DNA of 37,599 nt from Bacilli bacterium. Lineage in GTDB: Bacteria > Bacillota_I > Bacilli_A > RF39 > UBA660. Positions 1-36,991 of the stretch are shown piece after piece. Within the stretch, counting starts at the first letter, position 1, and each line of letters begins with the position of its first letter. A model generated the notes under the pieces. It made no database searches and was not told the origin of the DNA. It saw nothing but the letters and a program-made list of their open reading frames with translations. Where the stretch lies: NCBI GenBank assembly GCA_017542465.1, contig JAFXXB010000043.1, positions 1 through 37,599 of the forward strand. The letters are read 5' to 3'. The position numbers were made by a program, and so were the translations under genes.

Positions 1-3000
1 CAATGGGAGATGTAACTGCTCCTGTAAGTAAAATCACACCTTATATTGAAGGTGGAATTACATCAATTTATAAGACTAGTGGTTCATTATCATTTAATAA
101 TGGTAAGTTAAAAGGTGCTGTTGATGCATTCCAAGGAGCCGTTGATAGCGTAAGAGAAGGATATGAAATCTATTACGATAATGAAGATCATTCAGTTAAT
201 GCATTAAAGATTAGAACATACAGTGTATCTGATGTTTCTAGTACACCTGTTTCTAAGATGCCTAAAGATGGAAATGGTTATGCTAGAATTTCATATAAAC
301 CTAGTGTTACTGAATCATTATCTAATGTAACAATAGTAGGTGAAATTACTGGTGAAGGAACAGGTTCACAAGGAACAAACGGTATTTCTAATACTGAAAT
401 ATCTGGTAAAGATTTTGAATATACAGGAGACGAAGAAAGATATGTTGTACCTGAATCAGGTATATATAGATTAGAAACTTGGGGAGCATCTGGTGGACAC
501 AGCTTATGTAATGGTAATGAATGTGGACAACCTGGATATGGTTCTTATTCATCTGGTTATATTTATTTAACAGCTGGTCAAATACTATATATTAATGTAG
601 GTGGTCAAGGTGGAATTGGTATTCTACATGGTACTGCTACAGGTGGATATAATGGTGGAGGAACAGGTTCTTGGGATGGATCTGATGATGAAGCCTCAGG
701 TGGTGGTGGAGGAGCAACTCACATCGCTACGAAATCAGGTTTATTATCATCATTAGAAAGTAATAAAGATAAAGTATTAATTGTTTCTGGAGCTGGTGGA
801 GGAAGTTCTTATTCCTATAGAGCTGGTTCTGGAGGTGGAAAAACTGGTGGAACTGGTGCATCAAGCACTTTATCTGGTAATCAAACAACAGGATATGCAT
901 TTGGACAAGGTCAAAATGGTTCTGGTGCAGCAGACTCTGATGGTGTTGCCGGAGGAGGAGCTGGATGGTATGGTGGTTATATGAATAACCAAAGTTATCA
1001 ATCATGTGGTTCTGGTGGATCAGGTTATATCGGTAATACTAGATTATATAATAAACACATGTATGGTTATAATATTCAAACATCAGATGATGAATCAGAT
1101 AAGACTTTATCTAATGGTACTTCATCATGTACTTCTGCTGATCCAACTGAAGATTGTGCAAAAGAAGGAAATGGATATGCACGTATTACATTTATTCAAG
1201 GTTCAGGAGATTTCAATTATACTAATGGTGAACAAGAATATACTGTAAGTAAATCAGGATTATATAAGATAGAAACTTGGGGAGCCCAAGGTGGAAATAA
1301 CGGTGGTTATGGTGGATATTCAGTTGGATATACATATTTAACTACTGGAGATAAACTATATATTAATGTTGGTGGAGCTGGTACTGGAGATGGTACACAT
1401 CAATATAGATATGGTGGATACAATGGTGGTGGCGATGCCATAGGAGATGGTGATGGTAATACTAGACAAGCATCTGGTGGCGGAGCAACACATATTGCTA
1501 TATCATCAGGATTATTATCTACATTTGAAAATAAACAAGATGACTTATTAATTGTTTCAGGTGGTGGCGGAGGCCATGGATTTAACGTAGTTCAAGATCG
1601 AAATATTATCGGACATGCTGGTGGTTATGTTGGTGTCGGTGGAACAGATAATAATGTTGTAACTGGTGGCTCTCAAACTGAAGGTGGTAGTTGCGGTGGA
1701 ACTCAAAGTAATTATTGTCAAGATGGTTCATTTGGACAAGGAGGATCTGCTGCTTATGCCGGAGGTGGCGGAGGCTACTACGGTGGAGCTGATTATTGCC
1801 AAGCAAACTCAGGTGGCTCTGGTTATATAGGTAATACTAAATTATTTGATAAACAAATGTATTGTTATAACTGTCAAACAAGTAATGATTATGCAACTAA
1901 GACTGTTTCTAATGGAACAGATTCATGTCATTCATCTGGACCTGTAAGTAATTGTGCAAAAGAAGGAAACGGATATGCTCGTATATCATTTATCAATTCT
2001 TCTACAGGATTTGATTATACAAATGATGAACAAGTATATACTGTTACATCATCAGGATTATATAAGATAGAGACTTGGGGAGCTCAAGGTGGAGCAGCCT
2101 TAGATTCTGTCGGTGGATATGGTGGATATTCTATTGGTTATGCATATTTAACAATGGGAGAAAAACTATATATTAATGTTGGTGGTGCTGGAATTACGCA
2201 CGATAACACCGTTGAATTCTTAAATGGAGGATACAATGGTGGTGGTAAAGCAATTCACAACAATAATGGTGATGGATATGATGCTTATAGAGGATCAGGT
2301 GGAGGAGCAACACATATTGCTACTTCTACAGGATTACTATCTACTTTTGAAAATAAACAAACAGATTTATTAATTGTTGCCGGAGGCGGTGGTGGTGCAT
2401 CTACATTTAGAACGCATCATAGTACTGCTGGTTCTGGTGGTGGTATAAATGGTGTTTCTGCAGTTATGATTTCTGGTGATGGTACTGCTGGTACTGGAGG
2501 AACTCAAACTGCTGCTGGTACACCTGCTGGTTCATTTGGTTTAGGTGGAGATGCAATTCAATCACCTGGATGGGGTGAATCTGGTGGAGCCGGAGGAGGC
2601 GGAGGTTACTATGGTGGTGGCCGTGGTGATAATAACTCTGGCGGTTCTGGTGGATCAGGTTATATTGGAAACTCTTCCTTACTTGATAAGCACATGTATT
2701 GTTATAATTGTCAAACAAGCAGTGATTATGCAACTAAGACATTATCTGACGGAACTGATTCATGTCATTCACAATCTCCTTCTGTTGATTGTGCAAAAGA
2801 AGGAAATGGATATGCACGTATTACTCAAATCAGTAGTGCAGTTAAATTTGATTATACTAATGGTGAACAAACATATACAGTTCCAAGTACTGGTACATAC
2901 AAATTAGAAACTTGGGGAGCCCAAGGTGGTAATGTTCCAGATTATATCGGTGGATATGGTGGATATTCAGTTGGATATTCATTACTAGAAAATGGACAAA

Positions 3001-6000
3001 AACTTTATATTAATGTAGGTGGTAAAGGTACAGATAACTTATTAACTGTTGGATCTGGTGGATACAATGGTGGAGGAACTGGTACTGGTGGATATTGTGT
3101 AGGACAAAATAGATACTCTGGTTCAGGTGGAGGAGCAACACATATTGCTACTCAATCTGGATTATTATCAACGTTTGAAGAAAATAGAAGTAAAGTATTA
3201 ATTGCATCCGGCGGTGGTGGAGGAGCCAATAACATGGAAAGTGCTAGTGGTTCTGGTGCTGCTGCTGGTGGATACCTAGGTAATACTGCTACATGGACTA
3301 ATCATGGGCATTCATATTATGTTCAACCTGCTGGTGGTTCTCAAACTGCTGGTGGATTAAATGGATATAGTTATACTCCAATTGATAGAGAAGAAGCTGG
3401 ATTTGGCCAAGGTGGTAATCACGAAGGCAGCGACTGTTCTGAAGGTTCCGGTGGAGGAGCTGGATGGTACGGCGGAGGCTGGGGTCACTTTGCTCCAGGT
3501 GCAGGTGGCTCTGGTTATATTGGAAATGCTGACTTATTTGATAAATATATGACATGTTATAATTGTTCAACTAGTGATACTGAAAGTACTAAAACAACAT
3601 CAAATGAATGTCATAGTGAATCACCATTAGCTGAATGTTCCAAAGAAGGTAATGGTTCTGCTGTTATAACTGTTATATCTTCTGATGAAATAGGTACTTA
3701 CACTATTACATATTCTTCTGAAATAGGTACTTTAAGTTTTGTATCTAGAAGTTATGTTGGTACATCAGTAATTGGTGAATTCCCAGTTATAACTGACTTT
3801 GGTGATTACTACTTTGATGGTTGGTATTTAGATACTGATTATACTAAGAGAGTAACTATTGATACTATAGTTGAAGCAAGTACTACATTATATGCTAAAT
3901 GGATAGATAATGCTACATATTGTAGTAGAGAATCAGTATTTGATTTTGATTATAATGGAACAGAACAAGTATTTATCCCTGATTGTGATGGTAAATACAC
4001 ATTAGAAGTATGGGGTGCATCTGGTGGTGGTTTATCTACTACTGCTCAAGTAGCAAATAGAAAAGGTGCTGGTGGATACTCAACTGGTGAGATTAATTTA
4101 ACTAAAGGTGAAACACTTTATATTAATGTAGGAGGACAAGGTACTTTAGGTAACTATCCTGCTGGTGGATATAATGGTGGAGGAGCTGGAGGTAACAGTG
4201 AATCTGGATCAGGTGGAGGAGCAACACACATTGCTACAGCTTCTGGTGTATTATCTTCATTATCTAATAATAAGAATTCTGTATTAATCGTTGCTGGTGG
4301 AGGCGGTGGTACCGACGATACTGGTAATGGTGATTTCGGTGGATATGATGATGGATCTGGTGGATCTGCAGGAGGTTATGAAGGTAATGCTGCTATAGAA
4401 AGTGGTTCTACAAATAATTCTTACCCTGGTGGTAAACAAGACTCAGGTTATGCATTTGGTCAAGGTCAATCTGTATCATCATGTGACTCTGGTGGAGCCG
4501 GAGGTGGATGGTACGGTGGTTATGTATCTAACAGCTGTGGCGGTGGAGGAGCAGGTGGCTCTGGATATATAGCAAATCCTAGATTAATAAATGGAGCAAT
4601 GTATGGATATAAGGTTAAATCTAAATATGCATCAGATAAAGCTAATATAGCTTATCTAGTTCCATTAACAGATAAGATATCTAACGGAAATGTTACATAT
4701 TCAAATGTTCAAACAGCATTCACTGAAGCACAAAATGGAGATACATTGAAACTTATAACTAATGCAGATATATCTTATGATGTAGTTATTCCTAATAAAA
4801 CTGTTACATTTGATTTAAATGGATTTAACTTATCGACAAGTAAGACTATAACTAATGAAGGTACAATGAGTATAGTTAATACAAATACTGGATCAGGAAC
4901 TTCATCAATTATATCTACAAATAGTAATACATTATTAACTAACAATAATAATTTAACTATTAATAATATAAATATTAATGGTTATAATACTATTGATAAT
5001 GCTGGTACATTAGATGCTCAAAGTGTTCATATTAATGCAACTAATCAAGGTATTAAGAATACTAATGAGATGAATGTTGAAAACTCAATTATAAGTGGTA
5101 CAAATTATGGTATTTATAATAATAGTGTTGAAGATGTAACTTTAAGTAATAACTCAATTACTGGTGGATCAGCATTATACAATAATACAACTGGTAAGAT
5201 TACAAGTTATCTAAATAGTATATATGGAGATATTACTAATAATCATTCAAGTGGTATATTAAATATTGATAAAGGTGCTGTTGCTGGTACTTACACAAAT
5301 AAAGGTACATCTGAAGTTACTAATGTTGCTTTATCAAACTCTACAAGTACTAGTGGTCATGTTAGAAATATTAATAACTTTGGTAATATGACAGTTACTA
5401 ATTCAACATTCACTCAAACAAGTACTTATGCTTGCAACGGATGCACGGATAATTCTGTAGGTATTAGAAATAATTCTACTGGTAACTTAATTAGTTCTTA
5501 TAACACATTTAATATTACTAATGACTATGGTTCTAGAAATAGATGGTTAATAGGATTCGAGAATATTGGTATATTAAGATCAAGTAACGATACAGTTAAC
5601 TTGAATAATGGTTATAGAACAGCGATTATATATAATAGTACAAGTAATCAAGCAACTGTTGGTAATATTACATCTACTATTACAAATGGTCGAGAGAACA
5701 TAGCGTTTAATAACCAAGCAGGTATTTTAAATATCACAAGTGGAAACGTAGAGATTAAGAATAGTTATGATGCTTATGGTGTAGGACAATATGCAGGTAC
5801 CACAACAAGTAATGCTATTAATTACAACATGCATGATAATACTTATTCTAGAGCGTTCTACATAGCCGGTGGTACATTAAATACTGAAGGTGGAGATAGT
5901 AGAATTTATGCTACATCAAATTCATATATGGTTGAACATAGTTCAGGTACAGTTAATTTAACTAGTGGTGCTTATGAAATTAAAGCTCCTACAACATACT

Positions 6001-6416
6001 TCACTAGTATGTCTCAAGGAACATTAAATATCGCTGGAGGAACATATACATCTATTGCTACAGGAACAGCTAATGGTATTAACATGAGTGGAGGAACATT
6101 AACTATTACAGGTGGTAATATCTCAATGACTGGTACTACAGCAACTGGCATTAATGCTTCTAATGGATTAATTACAATTGGTACATTAGGTGGAGGAGTA
6201 TCTACTACAAATCCATACATTGAAGCTATTGGATCAACAAGTGGAACTGGTATAACTACTGGTGAAGCAGACTTATACTTCTATGATGGTAAAGTAGTTG
6301 CTACAACTACTCCAAGATCTGGATTCTTAAATGGTACTGAAGATGGATATGATCTTAAAGAATTTACTGATCCTAATACTGGATATAAGTATTGCATCTT
6401 AGATGTAACTTATTAG
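1..6416 (+). CDS. Giant glycine-rich repeat surface protein, 5'-truncated by the window
   Basis: The reading frame is open from the window edge, so the ATG at position 3 is probably internal; about 2137 residues are visible. Residues 70-100 look like the end of an earlier module. Five long modules follow, starting near residues 137, 403, 669, 948 and 1313. Each opens with a beta-strand and ETWGAQGG/EVWGASGG, continues with GGYGGYS, LYINVGG, GGYNGGG, GGGATHIA and LLIVSGGGGG, and (the first four) ends with a Cys-containing stretch and GNGYARI. This matches the bacterial glycine-rich domain also found in ALK/LTK receptors. Residues about 1230-1300 resemble an InlB/Flg_new repeat (FDGWYLD, LYAKW). 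Residues about 1550-2137 are Asn/Thr/Ser/Gly-rich short repeats typical of a right-handed beta-helix. There is no LPXTG motif or C-terminal membrane helix, so anchoring must lie in the missing N-terminus or be non-covalent. Role as adhesin or surface-layer protein is inference. Confidence 0.8.
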   Translation, partial: MGDVTAPVSKITPYIEGGITSIYKTSGSLSFNNGKLKGAVDAFQGAVDSVREGYEIYYDNEDHSVNALKIRTYSVSDVSSTPVSKMPKDGNGYARISYKPSVTESLSNVTIVGEITGEGTGSQGTNGISNTEISGKDFEYTGDEERYVVPESGIYRLETWGASGGHSLCNGNECGQPGYGSYSSGYIYLTAGQILYINVGGQGGIGILHGTATGGYNGGGTGSWDGSDDEASGGGGGATHIATKSGLLSSLESNKDKVLIVSGAGGGSSYSYRAGSGGGKTGGTGASSTLSGNQTTGYAFGQGQNGSGAADSDGVAGGGAGWYGGYMNNQSYQSCGSGGSGYIGNTRLYNKHMYGYNIQTSDDESDKTLSNGTSSCTSADPTEDCAKEGNGYARITFIQGSGDFNYTNGEQEYTVSKSGLYKIETWGAQGGNNGGYGGYSVGYTYLTTGDKLYINVGGAGTGDGTHQYRYGGYNGGGDAIGDGDGNTRQASGGGATHIAISSGLLSTFENKQDDLLIVSGGGGGHGFNVVQDRNIIGHAGGYVGVGGTDNNVVTGGSQTEGGSCGGTQSNYCQDGSFGQGGSAAYAGGGGGYYGGADYCQANSGGSGYIGNTKLFDKQMYCYNCQTSNDYATKTVSNGTDSCHSSGPVSNCAKEGNGYARISFINSSTGFDYTNDEQVYTVTSSGLYKIETWGAQGGAALDSVGGYGGYSIGYAYLTMGEKLYINVGGAGITHDNTVEFLNGGYNGGGKAIHNNNGDGYDAYRGSGGGATHIATSTGLLSTFENKQTDLLIVAGGGGGASTFRTHHSTAGSGGGINGVSAVMISGDGTAGTGGTQTAAGTPAGSFGLGGDAIQSPGWGESGGAGGGGGYYGGGRGDNNSGGSGGSGYIGNSSLLDKHMYCYNCQTSSDYATKTLSDGTDSCHSQSPSVDCAKEGNGYARITQISSAVKFDYTNGEQTYTVPSTGTYKLETWGAQGGNVPDYIGGYGGYSVGYSLLENGQKLYINVGGKGTDNLLTVGSGGYNGGGTGTGGYCVGQNRYSGSGGGATHIATQSGLLSTFEENRSKVLIASGGGGGANNMESASGSGAAAGGYLGNTATWTNHGHSYYVQPAGGSQTAGGLNGYSYTPIDREEAGFGQGGNHEGSDCSEGSGGGAGWYGGGWGHFAPGAGGSGYIGNADLFDKYMTCYNCSTSDTESTKTTSNECHSESPLAECSKEGNGSAVITVISSDEIGTYTITYSSEIGTLSFVSRSYVGTSVIGEFPVITDFGDYYFDGWYLDTDYTKRVTIDTIVEASTTLYAKWIDNATYCSRESVFDFDYNGTEQVFIPDCDGKYTLEVWGASGGGLSTTAQVANRKGAGGYSTGEINLTKGETLYINVGGQGTLGNYPAGGYNGGGAGGNSESGSGGGATHIATASGVLSSLSNNKNSVLIVAGGGGGTDDTGNGDFGGYDDGSGGSAGGYEGNAAIESGSTNNSYPGGKQDSGYAFGQGQSVSSCDSGGAGGGWYGGYVSNSCGGGGAGGSGYIANPRLINGAMYGYKVKSKYASDKANIAYLVPLTDKISNGNVTYSNVQTAFTEAQNGDTLKLITNADISYDVVIPNKTVTFDLNGFNLSTSKTITNEGTMSIVNTNTGSGTSSIISTNSNTLLTNNNNLTINNININGYNTIDNAGTLDAQSVHINATNQGIKNTNEMNVENSIISGTNYGIYNNSVEDVTLSNNSITGGSALYNNTTGKITSYLNSIYGDITNNHSSGILNIDKGAVAGTYTNKGTSEVTNVALSNSTSTSGHVRNINNFGNMTVTNSTFTQTSTYACNGCTDNSVGIRNNSTGNLISSYNTFNITNDYGSRNRWLIGFENIGILRSSNDTVNLNNGYRTAIIYNSTSNQATVGNITSTITNGRENIAFNNQAGILNITSGNVEIKNSYDAYGVGQYAGTTTSNAINYNMHDNTYSRAFYIAGGTLNTEGGDSRIYATSNSYMVEHSSGTVNLTSGAYEIKAPTTYFTSMSQGTLNIAGGTYTSIATGTANGINMSGGTLTITGGNISMTGTTATGINASNGLITIGTLGGGVSTTNPYIEAIGSTSGTGITTGEADLYFYDGKVVATTTPRSGFLNGTEDGYDLKEFTDPNTGYKYCILDVTY
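411..4610 (+). repeat. Tandem glycine-rich protein modules within the giant gene
   Basis: Five in-frame modules of roughly 265-280 codons begin near nt 411, 1210, 2008, 2845 and 3940. Spacing is regular for the first four. The fifth comes after an inserted InlB/Flg_new-like stretch at about nt 3690-3905. Modules 2, 3 and 4 are the closest to one another (shared ETWGAQGG and GGYGGYS blocks). The DNA of the copies has diverged at synonymous sites, so this is an old expansion and not a recent nucleotide-level duplication. Confidence 0.8.
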
Positions 6417-18839: not shown

Positions 18840-19772
18840 ATGGGAACAAAAGTTTTCAAGACCCTTGATGAACAAATAGAGATTTTAAAGAATAAAGGGC
18901 TAACAATTGAAGATATTAATTATGCTAAAGATGTAATACTACGTGAGAACTATTTTTTCTTAATGGGATATAGACATTTATTTCTAGATCCAAAGGATAA
19001 GAAACATTTTATTGAGGGAACTACATTTAATGAAATGTATTCTTTATTCACTTTTGATAGACAATTAAGAAATATAATATTTAAAAATATTTTAATAATT
19101 GAAAATAACTGTAAGTCTATTTTCTCATATGTTTTATCATCAAGACATGGTTATGTGGAAGCAGATTATTTAAAGCCAGATAACTATAATAATTCGCCTG
19201 ATAAAGCAAAACAAGTAAATGATTTATTAAGAAAAATGAAAAGGCAAATAAGGGTAAATGGATCCCAACATGATGCAACTAAACACTTTATATCTAATTA
19301 TGGATTTATTCCTTTATGGGTTGTTGTTAAAGTATTATCTTTTGGTATTACAAGTGAATTATTCACAATTATGAAAAGAGAAGATCAACAAGCTATATCT
19401 GATGAGTTTCATGTATCTGTAGATAATATGAATGTATTCTTACCAGTATTATCTAATTATCGTAATTTATGTGCTCATGAGGATATATTATTTGAACATA
19501 AAACACAAAAGGTTATACCTGATAATAAATATCATAAAGAATTAGATATACCATTTATAGATCATGAATATATATATGGTAAAGGTGATGTTTTTGTAGT
19601 TATTCTAATATTTAAATTTTTATTATCAAAAGATGACTTTAGAATGTTTATGAATGAAATAATGTATGAATTATCATCTCTTGAAGGAAAACTTCATAGT
19701 ATTCCTTTAGATAAGGTATTAGATAGAATGGGATTCCCTAAGAATTATGCTAAACTATTAGAATTAGAGTAG
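18840..19772 (+). CDS. Abi_2 (AbiD/AbiF-like) abortive-infection family protein
   Basis: 310 residues with the Abi_2 pattern: N-terminal LDEQIEILKNKGL, RENYFFLMGYRHLFL, FDRQLRNIIFKNILIIENNCKS, PLWVVVKVLSFGITSELF, and SNYRNLCAHEDIL. The last contains R208-x4-H213, the catalytic signature of HEPN RNases. Family members give abortive infection against phages, and relatives cleave RNA on activation. The start is ATG 18840, 6 nt after AGGTG. The next gene, an HtrA protease, begins 9 nt later with no terminator between, so they share a transcript. Phage defence is inferred from family membership. Confidence 0.88.
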   Translation: MGTKVFKTLDEQIEILKNKGLTIEDINYAKDVILRENYFFLMGYRHLFLDPKDKKHFIEGTTFNEMYSLFTFDRQLRNIIFKNILIIENNCKSIFSYVLSSRHGYVEADYLKPDNYNNSPDKAKQVNDLLRKMKRQIRVNGSQHDATKHFISNYGFIPLWVVVKVLSFGITSELFTIMKREDQQAISDEFHVSVDNMNVFLPVLSNYRNLCAHEDILFEHKTQKVIPDNKYHKELDIPFIDHEYIYGKGDVFVVILIFKFLLSKDDFRMFMNEIMYELSSLEGKLHSIPLDKVLDRMGFPKNYAKLLELE

Positions 19773-23784: not shown

Positions 23785-25668
23785 ATGATTAGATTAAAAC
23801 ATATATATAAAAGTTATAATAATACTACTGTTTTAAATGATATTAATCTATGTTTACCTAGTAAAGGATTAATCTCTATTGTGGGAACATCAGGATCAGG
23901 TAAATCTACACTACTTAATCTATTAGGTGGTATAGATAAACCGTCTAAAGGTAAGATATTTATAAATAATAATGAATTAACTGCTTTTAATAATAAAGAT
24001 TTAGAATGGTATTATGATAAATTCATAGCTTTTATATTTCAAAGTTATAACTTAATTGATTATTTAACTGTAGAAGATAATCTAAAACTTGTATCTAATA
24101 AGTATAATCATGTATTAAAGAAATTGAATATATATCATTTAAAGGATAAGAAAGTATCTTTATTATCTGGTGGAGAAAAACAAAGAGTAGCAATTGCTAG
24201 AGGATTAATTAAAAACTCTAAAATGTTATTATGTGATGAACCTACAGGTGCACTTGATAATAATACATCTATAGTTATTATGAACATATTAAAAGAAGTC
24301 TCTAAAGAAAGGTTAGTTATCATGGTAACTCATAATATGGAGTTGGCTAATAAGTATTCAGATTATATATTACATATTAAAGATGGTCATATAGAGAGTG
24401 TTCCTAAAATAAATGATGATACATTTAATATGAAAATTACTAGGAATAAGTTTAGGAATGTATATAAGATAATACTTAATCATTTACTTAATAAGAAGAA
24501 AAGAAATATCTTAATTAGTTTATCATTTGCTATAGGTTTAATAGCTTTATCATTTGTATTATCCATATCAAATGGATTCAAGAAATCAATTGATATAGAA
24601 GAGAAAAATAGGTTATCTTTATACCCAATTGTAATATCTAAGAACTCATATAATATAGAAGATGAATTAACTAAAGAAGATAAAAATAATCTAGATAAGA
24701 TATATATTAAAGATATTAATCATGTGAATAACATAACTAAAGAGTATGTTGATAATTTAAATGTTATTAACAATAATTTTAAGTATAAGATATATAAATA
24801 TAATATAAATGATTATATTATTACAACTATATCACTTATTAACATTGAATCATTCTATAATGAATTAGATTTATTGTATGGATCAAGAATAATAAGTAAT
24901 AATGAAGTAATATTAATACTTGATAATAATAATCAGTTAAATAAATATGATATGAGTATGATAGGTATAAACAATCCTGAATATAAGTATGAGAGTCTTA
25001 TTAATTATTCATATGTTATAAATGATATTACTTATACTATAAAAGGTATTTATAGGGTTAAAGACGATTCTATTCTATCTGATATAACAGGTGTTATTTA
25101 TAATTCAGAAGTATATAAGGATTCAATTCCTGATACTATTTATTTATATCCTTCATCATATGATAATAAACAGGTAGTTATTAACAAATTAAATGAATAT
25201 CAAGATATAAAATATCAAGACATATCAACATCAATTAAAAGTATATCTAATAGTTTAATAGATGGTATAAGTGTAGTTTTATTGGTGTTTTCCATTATTA
25301 CTTTAATAGTATCTAGTATATTAATAAGTATATTAACTTATATAAATATCATGGAGTATAAACATGAAATAGGAATATATAAATCTATTGGACTATCTAA
25401 CTTTAATATTCAGGTTATTTTTTATCTTGAGAATATAATAATTACATGTGTATCTATATTAATAAGTACTATAACTGTATTAATTATAAGTATTCCTTTG
25501 AATAATTATATATATAATCTAACAGGATTAATTAATGTTATATCTTTGAACTTTGGTAACTTCTTATTAATATCTTTCTTGAGTATTACTTTAAGTGTAT
25601 TATCATCATCTATTCCTATTCATAATATATCTAAACTAGCTATAGTGGAGATATTAAGGAATGAGTAG
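23785..25668 (+). CDS. ABC transporter, ATPase fused to FtsX-like permease (MacB type)
   Basis: 627 residues. The ATPase (about 1-215) has Walker A GTSGSGKST (34-42), Q-loop FQSYN, signature LSGGEKQR, Walker B MLLCDEPTGALD and H-loop THN. A first membrane helix lies near 240-262; a long Asn/Ile-rich extracytoplasmic region (about 265-490) and three C-terminal helices form an FtsX/MacB permease. Such proteins export peptides or lipoproteins, or sense antimicrobial peptides, and act as dimers. The single-chain ATPase-permease order is MacB-like. The last 8 nt overlap the nuclease-like gene downstream, implying coupled translation. The substrate is unknown. Confidence 0.9.
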   Translation: MIRLKHIYKSYNNTTVLNDINLCLPSKGLISIVGTSGSGKSTLLNLLGGIDKPSKGKIFINNNELTAFNNKDLEWYYDKFIAFIFQSYNLIDYLTVEDNLKLVSNKYNHVLKKLNIYHLKDKKVSLLSGGEKQRVAIARGLIKNSKMLLCDEPTGALDNNTSIVIMNILKEVSKERLVIMVTHNMELANKYSDYILHIKDGHIESVPKINDDTFNMKITRNKFRNVYKIILNHLLNKKKRNILISLSFAIGLIALSFVLSISNGFKKSIDIEEKNRLSLYPIVISKNSYNIEDELTKEDKNNLDKIYIKDINHVNNITKEYVDNLNVINNNFKYKIYKYNINDYIITTISLINIESFYNELDLLYGSRIISNNEVILILDNNNQLNKYDMSMIGINNPEYKYESLINYSYVINDITYTIKGIYRVKDDSILSDITGVIYNSEVYKDSIPDTIYLYPSSYDNKQVVINKLNEYQDIKYQDISTSIKSISNSLIDGISVVLLVFSIITLIVSSILISILTYINIMEYKHEIGIYKSIGLSNFNIQVIFYLENIIITCVSILISTITVLIISIPLNNYIYNLTGLINVISLNFGNFLLISFLSITLSVLSSSIPIHNISKLAIVEILRNE

Positions 25669-26095
25669 AAGGATTAAGTGGTTGGATCATTATAAATCAT
25701 ATTATGATGTATATTTTCAACCAAAGAGATTGTTAAAGAATGAGATAAAGTATGCTAAATGGTTAAGTAAATATTTTAATAGTGATGTTTATATGGTGCC
25801 TCAAGTAAAAACAAACGGAGTAAGAACACCTGATTATTGGGTTGAAAGAACAAATCAATATTGGGATTTAAAGATGTTGAATGGAAATTCAAAAAGTATT
25901 ATTGATAATGTTATGAATCATAGTAAGAATCAGACTAATAGAATAGTTTTTGTTATAGGAAAAACAAATTTTTCAATTAATAATATAGAAAAACAACTAT
26001 ATAAATGTATGTTTGGATATCAACGAAGATATATTAAAGAAATCATATTGAAGAATAAGAAAGGAAAAATGATAATTCACATTAAAAGAAAATAA
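25661..26095 (+). CDS. Small PD-(D/E)XK nuclease, CdiA C-terminal tRNase-like
   Basis: 144 residues, cytosolic, basic. E28 in NEIKYAKWL, D58 in RTPDYW, and D69-x-K71 in YWDLK form a PD-(D/E)XK site. The order (helix with E and A, VYMVPQ, TPDYWV, WDLK, SKSIIDNVMNHSKNQ with Q91, IVFVI, and a basic C-terminus) follows the tRNA-cleaving domains at the C-terminus of CdiA and related polymorphic toxins. Here it is free-standing, without a signal peptide or delivery domain, and no immunity gene is evident next to it. It overlaps the ABC transporter gene by 8 nt. Toxin activity is inference. Confidence 0.72.
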   Translation: MSRRIKWLDHYKSYYDVYFQPKRLLKNEIKYAKWLSKYFNSDVYMVPQVKTNGVRTPDYWVERTNQYWDLKMLNGNSKSIIDNVMNHSKNQTNRIVFVIGKTNFSINNIEKQLYKCMFGYQRRYIKEIILKNKKGKMIIHIKRK

Positions 26096-26141
26096 AAAAG
26101 GAACAGACTCCTGTCGTAATAGACAGGTCCTGCTCCTTTGT
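26089..26141 (-). ncRNA. Candidate small RNA B (hairpin RNA, tandem copy)
   Basis: On the minus strand a promoter (TTGACA, 17 nt, TATTAT with TG) is followed about 7 nt later by AAAGGAGCAG-GAC-CTGTC-loop-GACAG-GAGT-CTGTTCCTTT (26097-26139) and TTTTTTATTTT. The outer stem has 10 bp with one G-U pair and the inner stem 5-6 bp; the T run makes it a self-terminating RNA of about 50 nt. The plus-strand reading lacks a good T tract. The tail touches the stop codon of the convergent nuclease gene. Confidence 0.55.
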
Positions 26142-26147
26142 ATATCC

Positions 26148-26176
26148 ATAATAACATCTGTTATTTTAATTGTCAA
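26148..26176 (-). promoter_or_regulatory. Promoter of candidate small RNA B
   Basis: Minus strand: perfect TTGACA (26176-26171), 17-nt spacer, extended -10 TGTTATTAT with hexamer at 26153-26148. Confidence 0.6.
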
Positions 26177-26234
26177 AATAAATAATAAAGAGACCAACTC
26201 GCTGCCCTAAAGGACTGCGTCCGATCTCTTTATG
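26177..26234 (-). ncRNA. Candidate small RNA A (hairpin RNA, tandem copy)
   Basis: Second unit with the same plan as RNA B, 90 bp away: AAAGAGATCG-GAC-inner stem-GAGT-TGGTCTCTTT (26187-26231). The outer stem is 10 bp with two G-U pairs; the inner stem is 7 bp with one mismatch around a TTTA loop. The GAC/GAGT internal loop is kept although both stems differ. The tail CTTTATTATTTATTTT is T-rich but weaker than that of RNA B. Confidence 0.55.
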
Positions 26235-26239
26235 TATTA

Positions 26240-26267
26240 ATCATAGCATATATATGATATTTGTCAA
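26240..26267 (-). promoter_or_regulatory. Promoter of candidate small RNA A
   Basis: Minus strand: perfect TTGACA (26267-26262), 16-nt spacer, extended -10 TGCTATGAT with hexamer at 26245-26240. Confidence 0.6.
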
Positions 26268-26288
26268 ATATAAATTAAATGATATAAT
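26261..26288 (+). promoter_or_regulatory. Promoter for the dus gene
   Basis: TTGTCA (26261-26266), 16-nt spacer, TGATATAAT (hexamer 26283-26288). Its -35 overlaps, in divergent orientation, the -35 of small RNA A. Confidence 0.7.
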
Positions 26289-26311
26289 TATTCTTGTTAA
26301 GGAGGACTAGT

Positions 26312-27286
26312 ATGAGTTGGTATATTGGTAATGTTGAAATTAAAAATAAAATAGTACTTGCACCTATGGCTGGTATATCAAATACTAGTTATAGAAAGAT
26401 TATAAAAGAGATGGGTGCTGGTTTAATCTATGCTGAAATGGTATCAGATAAAGCCATAACATTTGGTAATGCTAAGACTATGGATTTACTTAAGATGGAT
26501 GAATCTGAAAGACCTATAGCTCAACAAATATTTGGAGCTGATGTTGATTCGTTTGTTACAGCAGCAAAAAAGATTGTAGAAGAACAACATCCTGATATTT
26601 TAGATATAAATATGGGTTGTCCTGTACCTAAAGTGGCTATATCTTCTCAAGCAGGATCAGCTTTGTTGAAAGATCCTGATAAGATTTATGAAATTGTTAA
26701 AGCTGTAGTAGATGCTGTAGATATACCTGTTACAGTTAAGATGAGATTAGGATGGGATAATGATCATATCAATTGTATAGAAGTAGGTAAGCTTGTTGAA
26801 AAGGCTGGTGCTAAAGCAATAGCTTTGCATGCAAGAACAAGAAGTCAAGGATATTCAGGTAAAGCTGATTGGTCTTATATAAAGAAATTAAAAGAAGCTG
26901 TTAGTATTCCTGTTATTGGAAATGGTGATGTACTTACTTGTTATGATGCTAAAAGAATGTTAGATGAAACAGGATGCGATGCAGTCATGATAGGTAGAGG
27001 TGTACTTGGTAATCCTTGGTTAATAAGAGATTGTGTTAACTATTTAGAAAATGGTGAAGAACCAATAGAAGTAACACCTAAAGAAAAGATTGAAATGTTA
27101 AAAAGACATTTTGATATGCTTGTACAAGATAAAAATGAAAAAAGTGCAGTATTAGAAATTAGATCTCATGCTTTATGGTATATAAAAGGCTTACCTGGAA
27201 GTGCATCTATTAAAAATCAAATATGCTCAACTAAAAATAAAGATGAAATGTTTGATATATTAGATAATTATATTAATAACTTATAA
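26312..27286 (+). CDS. dusB: tRNA-dihydrouridine synthase, DusB-like
   Basis: A 324-residue FMN enzyme that reduces uridines in tRNA D-loops. Seen are the N-terminal [13 protein letters not shown] (FMN phosphate region), the family motif NMGCPVPKV with catalytic Cys about residue 99, [25 protein letters not shown] and [13 protein letters not shown], then a helical RNA-binding C-terminus with [11 protein letters not shown]. The start is ATG 26312 behind AAGGAGG; an in-frame upstream start at 26294 lies before that site. Monocistronic, ending at a bidirectional terminator. Confidence 0.94.
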
Positions 27287-27289
27287 AAA

Positions 27290-27316
27290 AAGACTTATCC
27301 AAAACGGGTAAGTCTT
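27290..27316. terminator. Bidirectional terminator between dus and the metallopeptidase gene
   Basis: Arms AAGACTTATCC/GGGTAAGTCTT (one G-T pair) with an AAAAC loop, A-rich on the left and T-rich on the right. It contains the stop codon of the minus-strand gene. Confidence 0.8.
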
Positions 27317-28371
27317 AATTCTTTTTGTTGTTTATCTATAAAATCTTTTGAATGTTCATTTATTATTAAATTGTTATGTTGTAAGAATTCATAATAATCT
27401 TTTATGTTATTTGCTTTAATTAATTCTTTTAATACATACATAGCTTCTTGCGGATCATTATTAAATAAAGTATAGAATTCAATCATAGTCAAATATGGAA
27501 TTGTATAAGATAGTTTTTCTTCTAAAGATACATCCATCATTCTTTCTATTTTAGTTTTAGTGTCTCCTGTGAAGGATGACATATTACTTATAAATGCTTT
27601 TCTACTATCATTTATATTGTTATGCGATAAATAATTACTTTCTATTGATATTTCGTCGGCATATCTTAATATTGTTCTTGTAGTTAAAGCATTACTTATA
27701 GCTATATCTTCTTCCATATCATCAAAGTCTTCTAATAATATTTCTGATGCTAGTTTTTCCATGAACATTGGTAATAGTTCTATAAATGGATATCTTCCAT
27801 ATTGAGGTCTGAAATACATATAATCTGCTATAGCATGAGCATACTCATGAACTAAGTTTAAGAAATCATCAACTGTATCAGTTAAATGTATATTAATATA
27901 TGGATAATTAAGTGTCTTAATGTAGGATATATAATTTCTATTAAAACCTTCATGTTCTTTTTTAGTTAATCTTAAATTATCTTTTCTATCTTTAAATAGT
28001 TTATTAAATATATGAGCAAAGTCTTTATCAATGGAGTTATAAAAGTCATGTACAAATGAAATTAGATATTTTTGAGGAATAACTCTTTCTATTACACCAT
28101 CTATATTCTTAAATTGATTATCATCTATGTTATTATTAAAAATATCTATATCATTAATAAATGGCTTATTTCTATTTATTAATTCTTTGTCATATTTGAT
28201 TTGCTCTTGAAAATTTGAATCTGGTTGAAACATCTTTGTTTTATTATTAGCTATAGCACATAGAGTATCTAAGTCTCTTTGATACCTAATAATTCCTGGT
28301 TTTTCTGATGTTAAAACGGATATTTTATTAATTTGATCATTTATAACATTTTTATTCCATTTCTTGTACAT
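27295..28371 (-). CDS. M3-like zinc metallopeptidase, short form
   Basis: 358 residues. HEYAH (H175, E176, H179) is the gluzincin zinc site; the third ligand is probably E198 or E205 in PFIELLPMFMEKLASE, which resembles the conserved segment of M3 oligopeptidases (PepF). Full M3 enzymes have about 600 residues, so this is a reduced relative lacking much of the N-terminal lid. No signal peptide, so it should be cytoplasmic. The ATG at 28371 follows AAGGGG by 7 nt. It is divergent from uvrA. Substrate is unknown; peptide turnover is a guess. Confidence 0.75.
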   Translation of the reverse strand: MYKKWNKNVINDQINKISVLTSEKPGIIRYQRDLDTLCAIANNKTKMFQPDSNFQEQIKYDKELINRNKPFINDIDIFNNNIDDNQFKNIDGVIERVIPQKYLISFVHDFYNSIDKDFAHIFNKLFKDRKDNLRLTKKEHEGFNRNYISYIKTLNYPYINIHLTDTVDDFLNLVHEYAHAIADYMYFRPQYGRYPFIELLPMFMEKLASEILLEDFDDMEEDIAISNALTTRTILRYADEISIESNYLSHNNINDSRKAFISNMSSFTGDTKTKIERMMDVSLEEKLSYTIPYLTMIEFYTLFNNDPQEAMYVLKELIKANNIKDYYEFLQHNNLIINEHSKDFIDKQQKELRLTRFG

Positions 28372-36843: not shown

Positions 36844-36860
36844 ATTAATTGTTAAAAAAA

Positions 36861-36948
36861 CGAGTACCGAAGACAGTAGGGAACACATTGAGTGTTTTAA
36901 TCATCCTACCGAGGGAGAGTTAAATAGTCTTTAGATTATAAACTTTCC
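36861..36948 (+). ncRNA. Ribosomal protein L10 leader
   Basis: The conserved CCGAAGACAGTAGG...TTAATCAT-CCTACCGAGGGAGA framework of the Firmicutes L10 leader is present. GTAGG pairs with CCTAC, and inside AACAC pairs with GTGTT. GGAGAGTT (36914-36921) can pair with AACTTTCC (36941-36948), forming an antiterminator that competes with the terminator at 36940-36965. L10(L12)4 binding is known to favour the terminator in Bacillus, giving feedback on rplJL. Confidence 0.88.
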
Positions 36949-36965
36949 GCGTGGAAAGTTTTTTT
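36940..36965 (+). terminator. Attenuator terminator before rplJ
   Basis: Nine-bp arms AAACTTTCC/GGAAAGTTT, GCGT loop, T run. The left arm is shared with the antiterminator. Confidence 0.88.
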
Positions 36966-36991
36966 ATAGAAAAATTGTAAGGAGGACATAT

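Follow-up and report, generated by a model that had tools for sequence, protein, structure and literature searches.

We analyzed a 37,599-nucleotide (nt) contig of a Bacilli bacterium of the UBA660 lineage (GenBank assembly GCA_017542465.1, contig JAFXXB010000043.1, positions 1 to 37,599; this whole stretch is termed the window), in which two minus-strand hairpin RNA units lie between a plus-strand nuclease gene and the plus-strand dus gene (start near 26306). These units probably specify trans-acting antitoxin or immunity RNAs directed against the product of the adjacent gene, a CdiA_C-type tRNA nuclease; we infer binding, toxicity, transcription and delivery from the sequences compared below. 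On a broader scale, small hairpin RNAs of this kind may well represent a widespread immunity against phage-delivered tRNase toxins, with phage satellites collecting orphan sets that counter the MuF toxins carried by their helpers, a generalization that we consider somewhat better than an even bet. The distribution fits an antidote, since the RNA sits beside a toxin, has a constitutive-looking promoter, is sometimes duplicated and is carried alone by toxin-exposed elements.

The original prediction had described two minus-strand units of promoter, hairpin and T-rich tail built to the same plan. Both were recovered (unit 1, 26267-26187; unit 2, 26176-26090), each with a TTGACA box, a spacer of 16 or 17 nt and an extended -10 element. 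The features of the locus are as follows.

26240..26267, minus strand: promoter of RNA unit 1, with TTGACA at 26267-26262, a 16-nt spacer and TG-C-TATGAT (TGCTATGAT) ending at 26240
26187..26231, minus strand: hairpin of RNA unit 1, 45 nt, with a GAC/GAGU core
26168..26186, minus strand: T-rich tail 3' of unit 1, running into the promoter of unit 2
26148..26176, minus strand: promoter of RNA unit 2, with TTGACA at 26176-26171, a 17-nt spacer and TG-T-TATTAT (TGTTATTAT) ending at 26148
26097..26139, minus strand: hairpin of RNA unit 2, 43 nt, with a GAC/GAGU core, its 3' end adjoining the toxin stop codon
26082..26096, minus strand: U-tract or terminator tail belonging to unit 2, which overlaps the final toxin codons (KRK-stop)
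25661..26095, plus strand: stand-alone CdiA_C (PF18451) tRNase-type toxin gene, 144 amino acids (aa), its ATG overlapping the end of the ABC/FtsX gene
25665..26290, no strand assigned: inserted toxin and RNA cassette, approximate, with edges uncertain by about 15-25 bp

Both hairpins display the predicted 10-bp outer stem, GAC/GAGT element and inner hairpin. They fold at -22.4 (unit 1) and -23.6 kcal/mol (unit 2), with z-scores of -5.3 and -6.5 against dinucleotide shuffles, whereas the plus-strand reading of the same segments folds more weakly (-13.7 and -19.9, respectively). The GAC/GAGT element had been presented as an internal loop; it is found in both units but is partly paired, a G.U and a C-G pair flanking a 1x2 loop of A x AG. 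As 8 nt separate the -10 element from the hairpin in both units, transcripts would start at about the first hairpin base, and each RNA should consist of little beyond the hairpin and its U tail. Both promoters score 11/12 plus the extended TG, and the composite pattern TTGACA-N12-15-TGnTATnAT-N6-14-AAAG occurs at four sites in the 1.09-Mb genome, two of which are the window units. Rfam contains no family for the window hairpins or for the hairpins of 16 relatives, in line with the earlier remark that the RNA could not be matched to a named family. Low-score Rfam rows (mir-46, ncr1015 and the like) were dismissed as chance matches. The suggestion of drum had to be abandoned, as drum was absent from the matches that a permissive cmscan over 25900-26400 listed up to E 10.

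The neighbouring nuclease gene had not been linked to the RNAs in the original prediction, which left their function open and listed among its options a protein-binding decoy, the one nearest to our interpretation. Its product matches the Pfam family CdiA_C (PF18451) with an E-value of 1.1e-12 and 48.4 bits (cut-off 26.6). The top structural match of its AlphaFold2 model (pLDDT 87) is the CdiA-CT toxin of Burkholderia pseudomallei 1026b (4g6v; Foldseek E 2e-5, TM 0.60), with Z 10.5 and a root-mean-square deviation of 3.5 over 121 residues, and the toxin relatives retain its catalytic-type residues (E, D, DxK and Q). The B. pseudomallei protein is listed as a PD-(D/E)XK tRNase (PMC9990079). Judging from the profile match and the model, the window nuclease is a genuine PF18451 member with a PD-(D/E)XK fold and a putative tRNase-type toxin. 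It comprises the toxin domain only, without an N-terminal MuF fusion. No plus-strand open reading frame (ORF) of at least 60 aa lies between the toxin stop at 26095 and the dus ORF listed at 26294, and this interval thus offers no protein antitoxin candidate. Single-protein scans with the window toxin retrieved no relatives from the genome-contig or viral-contig collections, a scan with protein A6 retrieved none from the viral-contig collection, and a plasmid search gave no match.

Of the relatives found, the closest two (G010 and G005, with dus genes 92-93% identical to that of the window) revealed an empty site on comparison: the ABC/FtsX gene there directly adjoins dus, and the ~0.6 kb that carries the nuclease gene and both RNA units in the window is missing. 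The alignment of the window with G010 breaks near 25664 and is back by 26299. Inspection by eye detected no such RNA units upstream of dus in other relatives, and a DNA search of 60 relatives with the 211-bp region yielded only A+T-rich chance matches. By this comparison, the toxin and its two RNAs are a self-contained cassette in the window genome.

PF18451 loci were collected from the family of the window, where the domain is present in 13 of 291 genomes; another 42 loci came from collections of viruses and genomes and include Bacilli, Tenericutes, Ruminococcus and Clostridia metagenome-assembled genomes (MAGs); all promoter and hairpin calls are computational. On inspection of the family loci, practically all toxin genes were seen to have at their 3' end an opposite-strand sigma-70-like promoter, followed by a G.U-rich hairpin and a U-tract. 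A convergent unit also accompanies the Streptococcus phage genes for a minor head (MuF-type) protein ending in PF18451; these phage relatives are annotated as minor head or minor capsid proteins and are encoded downstream of the portal gene. Under an automatic rule (hairpin of -14 or better, promoter of at least 9/12, spacer of 16-18), 53 of 67 toxin genes were positive as compared to 1 of 76 other gene ends from the same loci, and the failures, when read individually, were mostly genes whose unit the rule had overlooked, owing to a frame shift or extension of the ORF, to a hairpin of lower stability or to double units. Since many streptococcal phage loci are near-identical, toxins were clustered at 90% identity, and an RNA unit was found in 41 of the 43 resulting clusters from Bacillota and phages, the rule accounting for 30 and reading by eye for 11, the latter being less objective calls, with several loci originating from MAGs. 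The units are convergent with the toxin gene, end at or near its stop codon and have a promoter spacing that is almost always 17. A unit is likewise present at L202, a toxin match from a different taxonomic family of the same class, and none was detected at seven MuF genes without toxin domain (0/7). As in the window, two tandem units occur on the gut phage contig L124, which also has a near-threshold match to GP20-b RNA (RF03003, 33.9 vs 36.2 bits) at 2782-2843 on the plus strand, in the phage head module. In L110, L146 and L148, the toxin ORF is without its usual stop and reads into the RNA gene, acquiring a short tail from the hairpin antisense strand.

The hairpins themselves are under selection as RNA: compensatory changes are frequent around a tandem G.U that hardly varies, which bears out the original view of small structured RNAs under selection. 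The RNA strand folds on average 7.4 kcal/mol better than its complement, and does so in 55 of 56 cases, as compared to 1.9 for control hairpins; it is this control comparison that counts, because the hairpins were themselves chosen by energy on the RNA strand. When 13 hairpins of one RNA type were aligned, 11 of the 17 base pairs had changed on both sides, with a covariation score that no slid register and none of the 500 shuffles reached, whereas two adjacent wobbles stayed fixed (G.U in 12/13 and U.G in 13/13). Another type, represented by 12 phage and satellite RNAs, displays two-sided changes in 12 of 23 pairs with 98.5% of cells paired, and again the tandem wobble (G.U in 9/12, U.G in 11/12). 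The inner hairpin sequence is kept across phages and satellites. What the family conserves is not GAC/GAGU: the family-wide common element is GUC/GGU, of which the window motif appears to be a lineage variant, and a low-scoring alignment of unit 1 to the family model R1 places GAC/GAGU at the tandem-wobble position. We also observed that a near-palindrome around GTAATTGTAATTAC / TGTAATTAC recurs between the -10 element and the hairpin in L094, L102, L103, L104, L145 and L169; it could be the operator for a shared repressor.

RNAs of this family are also encountered without a toxin. When 283 genomes of the family were searched with the model, the RNA turned up in five that have no listed PF18451 match, it being noted that this set and the 291-genome toxin set differ slightly and that toxin absence is certain only at the loci themselves. 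In L169 and L172 the RNA lies behind MuF genes without toxin domain, the L169 hairpin being identical to the toxin-linked hairpin of L103, and in L173 an orphan RNA occupies a chromosomal site. In L174 and L175, two genomes of one genus, the hairpin (1501-1537 in each) stands directly 3' of tsf (EF-Ts) as an apparent terminator with no toxin nearby, possibly reflecting recruitment as an antidote derived from a 3' untranslated region. Moreover, at least 25 different satellite phages of Streptococcus carry RNAs of four phage types, and none of the RNA-carrying satellites was recovered in the PF18451 toxin search of the same collection; Javan620 harbors only a toxin remnant of 26 residues. Several satellites hold mixed sets, with two RNA types head to tail in Javan259, two on opposite strands in Javan634, two each in Javan737 and Javan756, and three in Javan267.

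These data can be assembled into a tentative mechanism. Each RNA (~45-55 nt) would be produced from its own strong promoter and terminate with a U-tract of its own, at the toxin stop codon or close to it. The outer stem, interchangeable in sequence as long as it stays paired, would double as a terminator, and the inner part around the tandem wobble (GUC/GGU; GAC/GAGU in the window) would be the presumed toxin-binding determinant. The hairpin would bind the nuclease directly and may fill its RNA site as a substrate-like decoy, although such mimicry is a guess. In temperate phages, PF18451 fused to the MuF minor head protein is thought to be delivered on infection, and the RNA made by a lysogen would protect that lysogen. 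Phage satellites package in helper capsids. For MuF toxins, injection along with the DNA of the phage has been proposed (Jamet et al. 2017, PMC5576092). Given these two points, an RNA carried alone by a satellite would constitute orphan immunity, guarding the cell that the satellite enters or occupies.

Several observations weigh against this interpretation. Two closely related toxins, L155 and L157, are without a convincing RNA unit, and L165, whose toxin match is frame-broken, is another exception to the pairing. The toxin domains of L115 and L121 are 61% identical, yet their RNAs are of different types, indicating that RNA type does not strictly track toxin similarity. Within the window, unit 1 scores low with R1 (6.5 bits, E 0.11 on 251 bases) and unit 2 has no match; because of this low score, the window RNAs are treated as divergent members on the grounds of architecture, position and cognate toxin. 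Furthermore, the convergent RNA ends at the toxin stop, so that a read-through toxin mRNA holds its full complement. This last point favours the main rival explanation, a type I-like antisense RNA that would pair with the toxin mRNA at its 3' end and cut toxin synthesis without binding the protein, in the manner of RatA, SR4 and SR6 in Bacillus. Convergent 3'-overlapping antitoxins are known in Firmicutes, SR6 among them (PMC5848175). We nevertheless regard an antisense function as improbable. The outer stems diverge by compensatory change, preserving self-pairing rather than complementarity to another locus, and the G.U-rich fold belongs specifically to the RNA strand. Second RNA units lie well past the toxin stop codon, orphan sets of satellites mix RNA types, and control of an mRNA could not protect the recipient of a MuF toxin delivered as protein.

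A functionless RNA is very unlikely in our estimate, even if a hairpin followed by a U-tract resembles an intrinsic terminator and the L174 and L175 hairpins occupy the expected terminator site of a tsf operon. On that explanation the units would be convergent promoters and terminators only, insulating genes or interfering with toxin transcription; the ORF list of the window, however, contains no minus-strand gene upstream of the RNA units, phages and satellites share a conserved inner sequence, and toxin-free satellites retain the unit. Nuclease-RNA pairs with structured small RNAs do exist, and the irregular site of the hairpin could be a cleavage site, which would suit an RNA that is a cofactor, guide or normal substrate activating or directing the nuclease instead of inhibiting it. 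We hold this to be the least probable of the three alternatives, as many satellites and some chromosomes possess the RNA without the nuclease, a situation odd for a cofactor and natural for immunity, and the hairpins have no variable guide segment.

If the RNAs are indeed antitoxins, immunity to polymorphic toxins need not be a protein, and this class of weapons would be countered in an unusual manner by RNA. This would account for the lack of an evident immunity protein for MuF/CdiA_C toxins in Bacillota, and would provide a clear rule for finding the RNAs. It would also add to the RNA antitoxins a toxin superfamily and an architecture of convergent single-hairpin RNAs, tandem or orphan, and would link phage satellites to the toxins of their helper phages through RNA.

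Elsewhere in the window, an ordinary ribosomal protein L10 leader (RF00557) was identified at 36849-36973 (plus strand), and a very large glycine-rich repetitive protein of 2137 aa, likely a surface protein, is encoded at 3-6416 (plus strand). The region 27295-28371 (minus strand) encodes a protein of 358 aa that contains HEYAH, an HExxH-like motif, and is without a Pfam match; similar proteins are found downstream of dus in some relatives.

Among known systems, type III toxin-antitoxin modules (ToxIN, CptIN, TenpIN) of Firmicutes and phages likewise combine an RNase toxin with a small structured RNA, here as a proposed antidote. The window toxin is however a PD-(D/E)XK CdiA_C protein and not a member of the ToxN/AbiQ family by Pfam or fold, and in place of tandem repeats located upstream in the toxin transcript, its RNAs are convergent, downstream and driven by their own promoters, with one hairpin per transcript. 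The proposed action resembles that of a type III antitoxin, but as neither a ToxN-family toxin nor an upstream repeat RNA is present, we do not file the system under type III. In the type I pairs txpA/RatA and yonT/SR6 a small RNA also converges on the 3' end of the toxin gene, but the toxins are small hydrophobic peptides, as opposed to a 144-aa nuclease accompanied by a compact hairpin that keeps its intramolecular pairing. AbiF-RCd22 of Clostridioides difficile, in which the RNA is reported to bind the toxin directly and neutralise it both in cis and in trans (PMC12373285), resembles the present system in associating a phage-borne toxin with a structured non-coding RNA. It is a precedent for the type of action and not for the RNA family, since its toxin is an Abi_2 protein and its RNA, with the abiF motifs, is unrelated, whereas the window toxin is not Abi_2 and the window RNAs have no Rfam match. 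It is to be noted that the window separately encodes, at 18840-19769 (plus strand), an abortive-infection-type protein of the Abi_2 family (PF07751, E 1.3e-41), to which the C. difficile AbiF with its RNA antitoxin belongs (PMC12373285); no abiF RNA was matched by Rfam in the window.

The toxin domain family and fold are shared with the CdiA-CT/CdiI pair of B. pseudomallei 1026b (PF18451, cd13442; 4g6v). In that contact-dependent inhibition system, immunity is conferred by the CdiI protein, whereas the window cassette has hairpin RNAs in the place of a downstream immunity protein candidate. Our literature search, which left preprints and most subscription journals outside its reach, found no paper on an RNA partner or RNA immunity for the MuF/CdiA-type toxin class. 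The MuF polymorphic toxins of temperate phages are a further close system, many of the relatives being MuF-type minor-head proteins of Streptococcus phages that end in PF18451. Jamet et al. (2017, PMC5576092) discussed cd13442 and proposed small downstream proteins as the immunity to MuF toxins; in the system described here, by contrast, the toxin of the window is not fused to MuF and the immunity candidate is the convergent RNA.
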